Of a DNA stretch of 64,000 nucleotides, positions 18,601-24,600 are shown piece after piece. The stretch comes from Haliclystus octoradiatus (lineage: Eukaryota; Cnidaria; Staurozoa; Stauromedusae; Haliclystidae): positions 6,989,345 to 7,053,344 of the forward strand of contig OU744451.1 of assembly GCA_916610825.1 (NCBI GenBank). Reading direction: 5' to 3'. The notes under the pieces were generated by a model that did not search any database, was not told the DNA's origin, and saw only the letters and a list, made by a program, of their open reading frames with translations. The number at the start of each line of letters is the position of its first letter. The first letter of the stretch is position 1. The position numbers and the translations under genes were made by a program.

Positions 18601-21600
18601 CGTTTTGCAAGTGCATGATGTACGTCCCAAACTTTTCAAAACATTTTCTGATAGCTGCCATTTTGTGGGAAAGCCATCGTGTTCCTGTTGCGCGGAGAGG
18701 CTTAACACCGCCCTTTGATGATTCCTCTGCAGAGCTTGCTATGTCCCATATTTCTTTTAATTCGCGTAGCTTTTTGGGTGACTTTTTATAAATGGCATGC
18801 AAATTCTGCACCAAAGAATCAACCTTATCAAACGCTGTACCTTTCAATGCATTTTTCAGTGCAAGTTCCAGACGATGCGCCAAACACCAGTTGAACATCA
18901 ACCAAGGCATGTCCTTGCACATTTTCGTCTTTACCCCAGCTGTATCGCCTCTATTGACAGATGCCCCATCCGCTCCCATTCCAACAAGTCGTAACTGGAA
19001 ATCTTCAATATCTAAAGGGTATAATAATAGCATATTGTAATTAGCAATAGTATTTACAAGAGTATGACGGTAATTTACTACAATAAATCGTAATAATGTA
19101 ATAAAATTCATGTAAGTCATCCGAAAAACCGGTGGATTTAGCATATCCCCAGTAGTGCTTATACAACAATTGATTTCATAAACTTTCAAAAAATACTAAC
19201 CTAAATTTTCCAATCCAGTCATGATGCCTTTTTTAACTCCATCTGCGGTGGTGTGTTGCAAATTTTGAAGGCAAAGGAACGATGTTGTCACTTCAACTTT
19301 TTCTCCAGGTGGCTTTGTATTGAGATAAAGCACAAATAACGCTTCTTGTTCAACGGTACTGTTATCGGTGGTTCCGTCCCACAACACACTGAAGAAATTT
19401 ACATTACCAACAGTATTGCAGAGAGATTGGACAATAGCATCTCCAATTGAGTCAATGAACTGCCCACATGCCTTATTATTTCTATAGGCATTGCGAAAAT
19501 CTACTCCATGAAGGGTTTCAAGCGCCAGGATACTTTCGTATTTTTTCAATGGAAGTTCTTCTTTTGCAATGTAATACGCTGTTTGAAATTTTTTTTCTAG
19601 GTCTTCTCTAACTTTTTCGTTCATTGATTCCAGCGCAGTTGTAATTCTGGTCTGTCCAGTACGTTTCTCTTTTTCTTTCGTGAGATTATCTTCCATGCTA
19701 TATTTCGCTCGGTACAATCGCATAGCTTCAATGTGAGGGTCAGATTTAGCATGATCTGTTACTACCGATAACCGATAATTGGTTGATCAGTTATCCACAT
19801 GTCATTGTAATGTTTAATGCCTTTGATATGCTCTTTGAATTCTGTGCAAATTGTACATCTCAAATTTCTTGCAGTTTTTCCGTCAGTGTCGTAGGAAAGC
19901 CACAAGTTTGCCTCGTGGATAGCTGCACTTTTCTTTTTCCAATTTTCTTCCACGGTTTCCACGGTTACCGTACGTCCTTTTTTCCCACTAGTAGATTGTT
20001 TCTCTGCTATTGGGGTCTGCACTTTTGTCACCTCAAGTACAGGACCTTCTTTCTTGTTACAGACTTTCTTCCCTTTTATTCCAAAGAATGAATTGAGGTT
20101 AGACTGGTTCCCTGCACTAGTCGCAGAAGTAGTGCCAATTTTAATCTTTTTAATAGGAGGCTCAATGACGCTACTCGAATCGTCCTCTGACTTACGATCA
20201 CATGTTTTACATTTGCCCACTTTGTATGCTCCTTCGTTGTATCCTGCATCAGTTTCATTTGCTGGTATAGAACACAAGTTACATATAACCAATCCACAAA
20301 CCAGGCATGAGTATTTGGTGTTGGGACGACCACAAGTGAAACAATTCTTATCCATGTTGTAGGAAGACGTATATGCAAACTATTATAATGTAACTGATAT
20401 GTACACTTCAAGCGCAATGACTATAATGAAAATTAAGCTAAAAGTGCCCGTATAAGTAACAAACTCAAAAGTAGTGACCAGTCCTCCAATATGGTGAATT
20501 ACGCCCTCGAGAACGTCAGTAAAAAATAATTTAAGTATACATAAAATTACTAATTTCCGTAAGAACCAAGCTATGGCAGTAGAAGCACGTCAACGTTTCT
20601 GACGTTTGTGTGGGTGTAACATTTTTGTGTGTATAATAGCATATGGCATTATTTTCCTTCTTACTGTCACTCTCCTGAATAAATGCTTACCCCTGCGAAA
20701 AAGTTCATGAACGTTCATGAACTTTCATGAACTGAGTTCATGAACGTTCATGAACTAGTTCATCAACGTTAAATGGCACAGAGTTCATGAACGTTCATGA
20801 ACTCAAGTTCATGAAAGTTCAACAAAGTTAATGAACTAGTTCATCAAAGTTCATGAACTAGTTCAGCAAAGTTCATGAATTAGTTCATCAAAGTTCATAA
20901 ACTAGTTCATCAAAGTTCACGAACGTTCATGAACAAGTTCATCAAAGTTTATCAAAGTTCATGAAGCAGTTCATCAAAGTTCATGAAATCAGTCCATCAA
21001 AGTTCATCAAAGTTCATGAACGTTCATGAACTGTATAGTAAATAACAGATTAAAACAAGAATAGGAAAAAGCAACTTTGAATGTTTGAACATTTAATTCA
21101 CAAAAAATTGTAAAATGTGATATAGTAAGAGGAAATGAATACATTCAAACAAATAAAATATATGATATAGAAATGTAGGAATTAGTATAGCTTGTTAAAA
21201 TATCAAAGATTGTTTGAAGCCGATTGATACTTTAAATATGTCTAAAGTCAAATCAATTCTGCTCATTGAAGCCTAAAGCATATCAACTTCTGAAAGTGTG
21301 CTGTCCTTGAATGTCTTTTGCTTTGAACGGATTTTTCCAGTTATGGAGCATGATTTAATTTTCTATTCTGTGTACATATCTCTCTAAGTCTTCAAATCAT
21401 AATGTGAAGTCTTACCTTTAAATGTATAGTTGTATGAGTATCTTACTATATTAAGGGTAAATTGGTTCTCTGTTGGGATATTCTTTTCTTGCCATGATTC
21501 ATTTCAAAACTTATTTTATCATGTAATGATATTTGCACCTACTTTAAGAAGTGCTTTTAATAATAATGATAATTAATATTAATATCAACCTTTGGGTTGT

Positions 21601-24600
21601 ATATGTTCAAGAGCTTGAAGTTGTGACATGTCCAGTTTTTGAATTGAAAATAGCAAGCAACACAAATAATTATACATTGAACTTCTTTATGTAGTTTTGT
21701 TGTGGGGGTAAATAAAAGTCTTGCAAAGCTTTGCATCTCTGATTCATCTTTTTGTGAATAGTTAAAAGGAAATATAAAATCTGGCCTCACATTCTTTGCA
21801 TGGTATTCAATGTATACACCAACACCAGATATGAGCAACCAAACAACCATGTGGGGAGTAGGTCTACTGTAGTAAATTCTGTTTGAGTTTTGAAAACGAC
21901 AGTTTCATCTAATTAGTATTCCAAAATCAAGCTTTAGTTTCACTTGGAAATCATCTTTTCAATCCTGTTGAAGCCATACATTTTTATGTAAAACTTTGTA
22001 GAATATCTATCCATCAGCTAAATTCTTCATATTACTGAATTAAACTCATTTTCAAGTTTGCTATCTTTCTCTGGCTCAAGTAAACAAGCATCAAAAGTAA
22101 GGAATGATATAATTACTAACTGACTTCATAAGCCAGTTTTCTTTTGAATAACAATAGCTAGTACCCAGGTCCAAGCACCTAGTCTACATATAGACAGCTT
22201 ATCACCTTACTATCAGCATGAGATGACAGCATGAGCTCAGCATGAATTTATTAGCTTCTCACTTAGACACCCACTTAGCACTTCCTGTTTGTGAGATTTG
22301 TCATTAAAAACTTACTTCTTCACACATTGGCTATTGATGCTTCAGTTTGTTTGTTTTGATATTTTAGCTCAGGTTATCAATTTATTTAAATATACAGGAT
22401 AATCAACACACAAGAAGGGCCTACTCTCTATTGTGTGTATAATTAAAAATAAATTGAATTTTAATCAATTAAACTATTTATTCATTTAAAATTTAGATAG
22501 CCTAGTCACAGCACAGGATGTTTTAGGATATATTCAACACAATGTTAACATTATAATAAAAGTACAATCAAACTAACACATTAATGCATCAGACATGAAA
22601 CAACAAACTTGAACAAGAACATTATCATTTCTGATGGATAAAACTCAGAAAAAAGTTAGCTGTAGATTTTACAACTAATTAACTTATAGACATTGTAATT
22701 AATTAACTTAAGTACATACATTGTCTTGACAAATGAAGACACATGTGTGTCTTCTGTCTTCTCCTAAACAATCTATCAGAAGGAGGGGGTCCTGGGAACC
22801 TGGTTCATTGAAGGCCAGCACAAAATCAGTAGGTTTTCAAATATAATATTTACTTTTCAATATTATTATTCATAGACTTCACATTCATTTTGTATAAATA
22901 TTTTGAAAACCCTAAAAGTGGAAAGTTTCCTATCTTATCTGGAATTTCTGATTCCAGTAATGCAAACATTTTGTGACACCCTGCCCCTAAGGCATTGTCT
23001 ATTTGTCATTAGTTGAGATCAATAATTTGCTGCTAGATTTTATTGGCATTACTTATATACTGCCCTGATCACTTGGCAATAAGCTCCAAAATTGTTGACA
23101 TGGTACCAGAAATGCTGCCAATTAGACCTGCATTGATTTATGTTTTCCTGCTAAAATAGCCCTTACAATTGTGTGTTAATACAGTTTCACACTTACTGTA
23201 TCTAGTTGAGCTTTATTATGTATTTTGATCAGAATGTTTTTTTTATCATGAAGTTTCATAACCTAGGATTTCTGTTTCATTAATTCAGAATTAATGTCCA
23301 TGAACTTCTACTATTGGTAGGGTTTACGAGAAATGACTGCAAAGAATGAACATTGATTGAAATTTATGAACGTTCATGAACTTGGAATATAGTTCATGGA
23401 CTTTGAATACTGGTTAATAAACTTGGAATGTAATTGTTGAATGATGACTTTTAGTTCATCAAAGTTCATGAACCTTCATGAACTCTGTGGGTCCATGAAC
23501 TATTTGTTTACAAACTGCTATGATTAGTTCATGAACATTCATGAACTTGAATAAAAGTTCAAGAACGTTCATGAACTTTCATGAACTTTGATGAATTTGG
23601 AAAACTAGTTCATGAACGTTCATGAACTTTTATGAACTTGGAAAACTAGTTCATAAACTTTGAGTGTAGTTCATGAATGGTGACTTTGAGTTCATCAAAG
23701 TTCATGAACGTTCATGAACTGTAAGAGTTAGTGAAAAATATTTTTATGAACTATTCCTTACACTTCATGAACTGTTCATCAAAGTTCATGAACTGTTCAT
23801 CAAAGTTCATGAACGTTCATAAAAGTTCATGAACGTTCATGAACTTTTATGAACTTTCATGAACTTGTTTCGCAGGGGTAAATCAATGAAATTTTGATAT
23901 TGTAATATAAAAACATTTTATTTCGATATTATCAATGAAATTCTTTATTCGTCTATTATAGCAGTCTATATTTATTGTGATTTGTAAAATGCATTTATCA
24001 TATTGTCGCAACATTGTTGTTGAAGTAATCTGTGTCAAATAACAACTTGAGGTAACGGTATACTTATGGCTTCAAATGATTTCAACAAAAAATTACGAAG
24101 ACCTGTTTTGAATTAACAATTTATCATTGAACACTTTTACATACATAGATGTGTACAACTGACTATAATATTACTATAATATAGATAGATAATTATACTG
24201 TAATTCTTGCTCTACTAAATTTGATGATGTGAGATGGATTAAAACTTTATATAAAACTTTAACTGTAACTTTATATAAAACTACAATCATATTAGCATGT
24301 CTGGGGCTGCTTGTAGTAGAGCGGTTTGATGTGCATAGTATTTTCAATCAACCATCTAAGACGTGTTACGACAGGTAGGTGTCGAATTTGTGTAATACAA
24401 CACGCGAAAGAGGAGGGGCACATTCTGATAATGTGACATGCTGAGTCATTATAATTCTAGGAAAGGTAAATGACGAATTTCTCTGTCACATTCATCGAAA
24501 TAAAAAATATGTTGTTGAATTTTCTAACGAGATATCACGATTTAGTCGCATTTTGATAAAGGATTATAGAAATCTAACAATATTATTACTAAAGACATTA

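Follow-up and report, generated by a model that had tools for sequence, protein, structure and literature searches.

We found that the 3.2-kb element at positions 20690–23878 of a 64,000-nucleotide stretch of the Haliclystus octoradiatus genome (contig OU744451.1; the whole stretch is called the window below) belongs to a transposon family. Its dispersed copies share their ends and 2-bp target duplications, so transposition is required to account for them. Like miniature inverted-repeat transposable elements (MITEs), the copies have common terminal inverted repeats, duplicate their target and lack coding capacity; like fold-back elements, they have inverted ends made of internal repeats, here 42 near-exact units in two arms. 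The transposon identity of the family is firm. The element probably represents a non-autonomous, cut-and-paste family of this fold-back or MITE-like kind that exists in many copies and in which a 10-bp palindrome, GTTCATGAAC, would serve as a site for the transposase. No report of the family was found in the openly licensed literature. The pattern is real and far from random. What appears to be new is the make-up of this fold-back/MITE family: a 10-bp palindrome as its building unit, varied 2-bp duplications and a long form that would be a mobile array of heat-shock elements (HSEs).

Structure, copy number and target duplications

The element starts with CCCCTGCGAAAAAGTTCATGAAC and finishes with TTGTTTCGCAGGGG, with TA on each side, and the coordinates and ends given for it in a preliminary description of the window were exact to the base. 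Its parts, as read from the sequence and from searches for ends, copies and frames, are as follows.

20690..23878, plus strand: whole element, non-autonomous fold-back, long subfamily, 3189 bp (read from the sequence)
20688..20689, unstranded: left copy of the target duplication, TA (sequence)
20690..20701, plus strand: left terminal inverted repeat, CCCCTGCGAAAA (end search)
20703..21031, unstranded: left arm, 19 GTTCATGAAC sites with at most one mismatch, as many as 6 inverted heat-shock pentamers in a row
21032..23295, unstranded: middle, non-coding, about 2.3 kb (copy search and frame scan)
23296..23864, unstranded: right arm, 23 GTTCATGAAC sites with at most one mismatch, as many as 6 inverted heat-shock pentamers in a row
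23867..23878, minus strand: right terminal inverted repeat, CCCCTGCGAAAC (end search)
23879..23880, unstranded: right copy of the target duplication, TA (sequence)

The 10-bp GTTCATGAAC is its own reverse complement, and the arms are as crowded with it as first described. The window contains 71 sites with at most one mismatch, against a mean of 3.21 and a largest value of 8 in 100 dinucleotide-preserving shuffles; 42 of the 71, and 22 of the 35 exact sites, lie within the 3189 bp. Coding capacity in the middle is nil, a single stop-to-stop frame of at least 55 amino acids (115 aa) being present in 21032–23360. An Rfam scan of the window gave no match.

Both the ends and the palindrome are abundant in the genome, which we searched over 261.86 Mb in 33 contigs, using reversed patterns of equal composition as controls. 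Exact CCCCTGCGAAAA occurred 4,183 times against 11 for its control, confirming that the ends are common to other genomic copies. GTTCATGAAC occurred 49,436 times and its reversed counterpart 364 times, an approximately 136-fold excess and about one site per 5.3 kb; base composition in the window predicts some 280 genome-wide. These data support the earlier suggestion that the palindrome has been amplified, plausibly as a protein site.

The middle of the element is also repeated. We obtained 35 full-length matches on many contigs, the window's own and 34 others at 97–99% identity, a lower bound because 40 of 409 candidates were scored. Among 59 exact long left ends, 31 adjoin a known middle match, and probing the remaining 28 revealed the middle in 23; adding 9 copies that have variant left ends, we count at least 63 places with the middle, which is incomplete in some of them. 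One of the other five probed ends (L128) runs into 3'-arm sequence, and four (L119/L102, L120/L115, L121 and L123) gave neither. The DNA beside L119 is single-copy except for a short unrelated repeat, and we therefore read this locus as a truncated relic; by eye, L120 is a short member. Two divergent long-subfamily left ends lie about 0.8 kb apart (G000:C6:3215966 and 3216787). The minus-strand end runs into the usual middle, whereas the other does not at the place probed.

The eight complete long copies that we read, including that in the window (3095–3227 bp), all have matching flanks (TA, AT, AA, TT, AT, AA, TA and GG), and these duplications stop at 2 bp, since none of the eight matches at 3 bp. 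Of 30 complete elements whose ends are exact or nearly so, 24 have matching 2-bp flanks; the short copies of this sample were mostly picked for both exact ends being visible near the start of contig C1, and the chance of a match is about 0.077 per element. Eight dinucleotides are represented (AT 7, TA 5, AA 4, TG 3, CT 2, and TC, TT and GG 1 each). The element had been described as TA-flanked. That holds for the 3.2-kb copy and for the 146-bp copy at 28173 (TA/TA), which is outside the 30 because its right end carries a mismatch, but not for the 66-bp copy at 33760 (TT/CT). TA as a fixed target has to be given up, as it makes up 5 of the 24 matching duplications.

Members differ greatly in length, and one family with common ends, from a 66-bp hairpin up to a 3-kb element, is supported as first proposed. 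In the common short form (about 66–240 bp), either end reads inward as CCCCTGCGAAAA, a CAGTTCAGGA box and one to three GTTCATGAAC units with a single A/T linker; further in there is often a GTTAAATGGC box with additional units, followed by the mirror image. All 18 short members compared (66–545 bp) resemble their own reverse complement (0.66–0.96, against 0.50–0.52 for shuffles). Internal tandem expansion has brought L049 to 545 bp, and L046 has a doubled right end. Older copies have altered ends, for example CCCCTGTG and CACAGGGG. One member (L052:101-1077) is interrupted by another inverted-repeat element with ends like TAGGGATGAGACGATTA.

The spacing of the units, a point absent from the preliminary description, separates the two forms. 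Genome-wide, pairs of exact units are 11 bp apart, about one turn of the DNA helix, in 6,438 cases, 10 bp in 564 and 12 bp in 293, with 0 in controls. In the long subfamily the step is 10 bp: of the 50 zero-linker places listed, counted on C1 and the start of C2 only, 48 are in clusters of the 3.2-kb type. Among the eight copies of this young form, substitutions amount to about 1.1% in arms and middle alike. Alignment gaps measure 10, 12, 22, 24, 33, 43 and 46 bp in the left arm, 1, 21, 71 and 92 bp in the right arm and 1, 3 and 5 bp in the middle; their counts repeat shared events because they were tallied over 28 pairs of copies. Since the arm gaps are large and mostly near unit multiples while substitution rates are equal, the arms change mainly by gain and loss of units. 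An array of about six tandem 36–37-bp units containing GTTCATGAACGGTTCAT, without family ends (L014:1428-1626), looks like a minisatellite that started from the palindrome.

Probable role of the palindrome and search for a transposase partner

It is likely, judging from the arrangement of the sites, that GTTCATGAAC is an internal binding site for a transposase acting in trans. A transposase made elsewhere would recognize the family ends, and a symmetric DNA-binding dimer of it, to which a self-complementary 10-mer is suited, would read the palindrome. With units repeated at close to one helix turn (a step of 11 bp for most exact pairs and of 10 bp within the long subfamily), several dimers would sit on the same face of the helix, where they could aid assembly of the end complex. 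The arrays may grow or shrink through slippage, unequal exchange or interrupted gap repair, and the 10-bp phase of the long subfamily would also yield perfect HSEs, as a by-product or an advantage. The family offers a natural series, its members spanning 66 bp to 3 kb, in which to study the number of repeated protein sites required at a transposon end and the way in which such arrays lengthen. A 10-bp palindrome at about one per 5.3 kb of a 262-Mb genome also matters for motif searches in genomes of this kind.

Several points weigh against this account. Matching duplications are absent from 6 of the 30 elements (the 66-bp window copy, L047, L051, L053, L056 and one in L064), and the sample itself favours intact copies because it was picked by the visibility of both exact ends. 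The duplications were read from the flanks of filled sites. A limited search turned up no autonomous copy and no transposase tied to the family ends, so the encoded transposase that the preliminary description had proposed to look for was not found. A sequence-specific host protein could account for the palindrome equally well.

The palindrome could instead multiply itself, by hairpin-driven slippage or satellite-like amplification, with the transposon ends incidental. Arm length does vary by gain and loss of units, and both the internal tandem expansion in L049 and the L014 tandem array, which has the motif without family ends, are in keeping with this. We nevertheless regard it as very improbable, because dispersed copies with common ends and 2-bp duplications demand transposition and because CCCCTGCGAAAA has been amplified too (4,183 against 11). 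Nothing was found that calls for a hairpin replication intermediate, which had also been suggested; 2-bp duplications fit ordinary cut-and-paste transposition.

Known elements resemble the family in part. Galileo and other Drosophila Foldback-type elements likewise have long inverted ends of internal repeats. Galileo differs in belonging to the P group and in its longer duplications, whereas the family described here has 2-bp duplications and a 10-bp palindrome as its unit. Galileo is also the nearest experimental precedent: the THAP domain of its transposase binds multiple sites in the long, internally repetitive ends, and its authors suggest, in the section consulted, that many sites give specificity (PMC3688188). 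The Tetris/DAIBAM elements of Drosophila virilis are similarly non-autonomous fold-back and MITE forms with common ends and internal tandem repeats, which also form satellite arrays, although, going by the excerpt of that study, their repeat is of about 220 bp rather than a 10-bp palindrome and the sequences are unlike (PMC4079207). A link to Dada transposons was rejected: CCCCTGCGAA occurs as their target motif in small nuclear RNA genes (PMC3706591, excerpt), and we judged this a coincidence. In the openly licensed literature, CCCCTGCG together with transposons led to the Dada paper alone, and the letters of GTTCATGAAC led to papers judged unrelated.

We assign the family to no superfamily, because its varied duplications oppose Tc1/mariner and ISL2EU, their 2-bp length opposes the P group and its CC..GG ends oppose CACTA. 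The TA duplication of Tc1/mariner accounts for 5 of the 24 matches and the AT duplication of ISL2EU for 7. Target duplications in the P group, including Galileo, are 7–8 bp long, whereas those of the family are 2 bp and none of the eight long copies matches at 3 bp. In CACTA/EnSpm (CMC) elements, short subterminal repeat arrays are typical. The family shares with this group a short duplication of free sequence (2 bp, eight dinucleotides among 24), but its ends are CCCC..GGGG rather than CA..TG (CACTR). ISL2EU, which is abundant and recent in this genome, also makes 2-bp duplications; it differs in that these are AT and the first two end bases are usually GG, according to the portion seen of PMC4482050, and the ISL2EU copies we read have AGAGCGTTTTCC-like ends.

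One refinement of the transposon account would place the family in CACTA/EnSpm, with a CACTA element of the same genome as its partner. The 2–4-bp duplications of CMC elements (PMC4482050, same portion) agree with it, and the genome holds 36 Transposase_21 matches, 17 of them to profile positions of about 7–64, 12 of these with a 115-aa frame. CMC termini are 5'-CA..TG 'in most cases', as worded in an extract of PMC12730594, whereas those of the family are CC..GG. Furthermore, no array was encountered in 20 probes of 41 bp, spaced at 500-bp intervals that started 3.5 kb ahead of one of the 36 matches and ended 6 kb past it, although this covers a single copy and short arms could escape such probing. 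We think this placement unlikely.

For a partner of another type, we searched the genome with the DDE_Tnp_4 profile, scoring 150 of 414 candidates and reading the best 30 of the 150 matches. None of these 30 is accompanied by CCCCTGCG or CGCAGGGG in the surrounding 1.5 kb or so. At least six TTCATGAA motifs are present at 12 of them (L069-L080), but the element there, of the ISL2EU type and 5472 bp long, has different ends and harbours an old family remnant. Two copies of this element read whole (L097:2791-8262 and L098:2452-7923) are 99.9% identical and have ends other than those of the family; each has a THAP/HTH/DDE_Tnp_4 frame that looks intact and a YqaJ/Ulp1 frame of 896 aa, with a palindrome-family remnant between them. 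As cargo of this kind, the palindrome would be copied along with another transposon. A further ISL2EU-type element (L091 and L093) contains an inserted relative with CCCCTGTG/CACAGGGG ends.

Heat-shock elements in the long subfamily

The sequence TTCATGAA is TTC-nn-GAA, that is, two inverted HSE pentamers, and GAANNTTCNNGAA is used as a canonical heat-shock site in the part of PMC13104882 consulted. With a 10-bp step, the palindrome forms pentamer runs without interruption; with an 11-bp step, the runs are broken. The window has 32 three-pentamer sites, 30 of them inside the element, compared with 0.65 in 20 mononucleotide shuffles. All eight long copies have 10–16 runs of at least three pentamers, with a maximum of six in a row, and 8–14 perfect four-pentamer sites each (mean 11.75). 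The window outside the element has two runs and no four-pentamer site, and seven transposase loci, comprising 24.6 kb of unrelated DNA, have neither. Genome-wide, there are 1,594 four-pentamer sites against 35 for the control. By our estimate, the long subfamily supplies about 40% of them (54 left-end copies with the middle, times 11.75), assuming the mean site number for every copy; variant-ended copies would add to this figure and truncated ones subtract from it. Among the first 50 four-pentamer places listed, 13 come from one long copy and the rest are scattered. One of these sites is located 46 bp inward from the family end at C1:2276182, which shows that the long copies are not the only members to supply such sites.

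The palindrome might have been kept for a host protein, heat-shock factor (HSF), which reads inverted nGAAn arrays. The number of sites in the long copies and in the genome speaks for this. So does a precedent, the HSE clusters of Caenorhabditis Helitrons, as presented in the sections seen of PMC6927752. We consider it rather doubtful, since no three-pentamer site occurs in any of the 18 short members, where the 11-bp spacing breaks the 5-bp register, and HSF cannot explain the palindrome across the family. On the same count, the heat-shock reading is ruled out for the family as a whole. Nuclear-receptor half-sites (AGTTCA, inverted with no spacer) were also considered as a reading of the palindrome. 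A version of the heat-shock reading confined to the long subfamily, in which stress leads to opening or transcription of the subfamily or its partner, so that it spreads and seeds heat-responsive regulation nearby, seems to us a minority possibility, given that HSE arrays arise automatically from a 10-bp tandem of the palindrome. HSF might account for the success of the long subfamily, or the arrays could be an accident of phase.

Combining this with the transposase-site reading, we tentatively propose, while thinking it improbable, that the long subfamily shortened the step of its transposase-site palindromes from 11 bp to 10 bp, which turned it into a mobile, densely packed HSE array that would link heat stress with transposition and with the genes nearby. 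If this is true, some 60 near-identical copies supply about 40% of the perfect four-pentamer HSEs of the genome. Helitrons are rolling-circle transposons without inverted ends or duplications; if the heat-shock reading holds, the long subfamily would be to cut-and-paste, inverted-repeat transposons what the HSE-carrying Helitrons of Caenorhabditis are to that class. Both spread dense HSE clusters by means of a DNA transposon; the Helitrons differ in that HSF-1 binding, along with heat-induced genes, is reported for them in the excerpted text of PMC6927752, whereas the family here is known from its sequence.

Other members and neighbouring genes in the window

The two smaller versions named in the preliminary description have exactly the coordinates given there, and motif and end searches added further traces of the family.

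28173..28318, plus strand: short member, 146 bp, flanks TA/TA, right end CCCCTTCGAAAA with one mismatch, self-folding as DNA (z -9.8)
33760..33825, plus strand: 66-bp member, the shortest of the window, forming a near-perfect hairpin (-35.6 kcal/mol, z -13.9), flanks TT/CT, unmatched
36353..36373, unstranded: pair of loose units, probable relic of a decayed copy (motif search)
39991..40155, unstranded: decayed member with a degenerate right end, two mismatches (motif and end search)
47960..47980, unstranded: pair of loose units, probable relic (motif search)
38841, 44925, 48145, 48185, 48553 (one mismatch) and 51675 (one mismatch), unstranded: single loose units (motif search)

Judged by eye, the loose units are mostly remnants of decayed copies with altered ends. 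They had been placed in later introns of ZDHHC6, and the units themselves are present (44925, 47960, 48145, 48185, 48553 and 51675). The intronic placement of 51675 is doubtful because it adjoins a minus-strand exon of an inositol polyphosphate kinase gene (50965-51453; Pfam PF03770, E 4.6e-29). Pfam matches to DHHC exons were found at 34234-34536 (E 6.5e-18) and 26263-26562 (E 0.005, below the cut-off of the family).

To the left of the element, several long open frames follow one another on the minus strand (17552-20379) and end about 0.3 kb from it. We take them to resemble a hAT-type, C17orf113-like transposase-derived gene; their Pfam zf-C17orf113 matches are weak and below the cut-off (E 0.027 and 0.58). 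An uninterrupted 244-aa frame for a 14-3-3 protein on the plus strand (13552-14286; Pfam PF00244, E 3.3e-97) is either an intronless gene or a retrocopy, and a long TAAA tetranucleotide microsatellite occupies 43465-43814.

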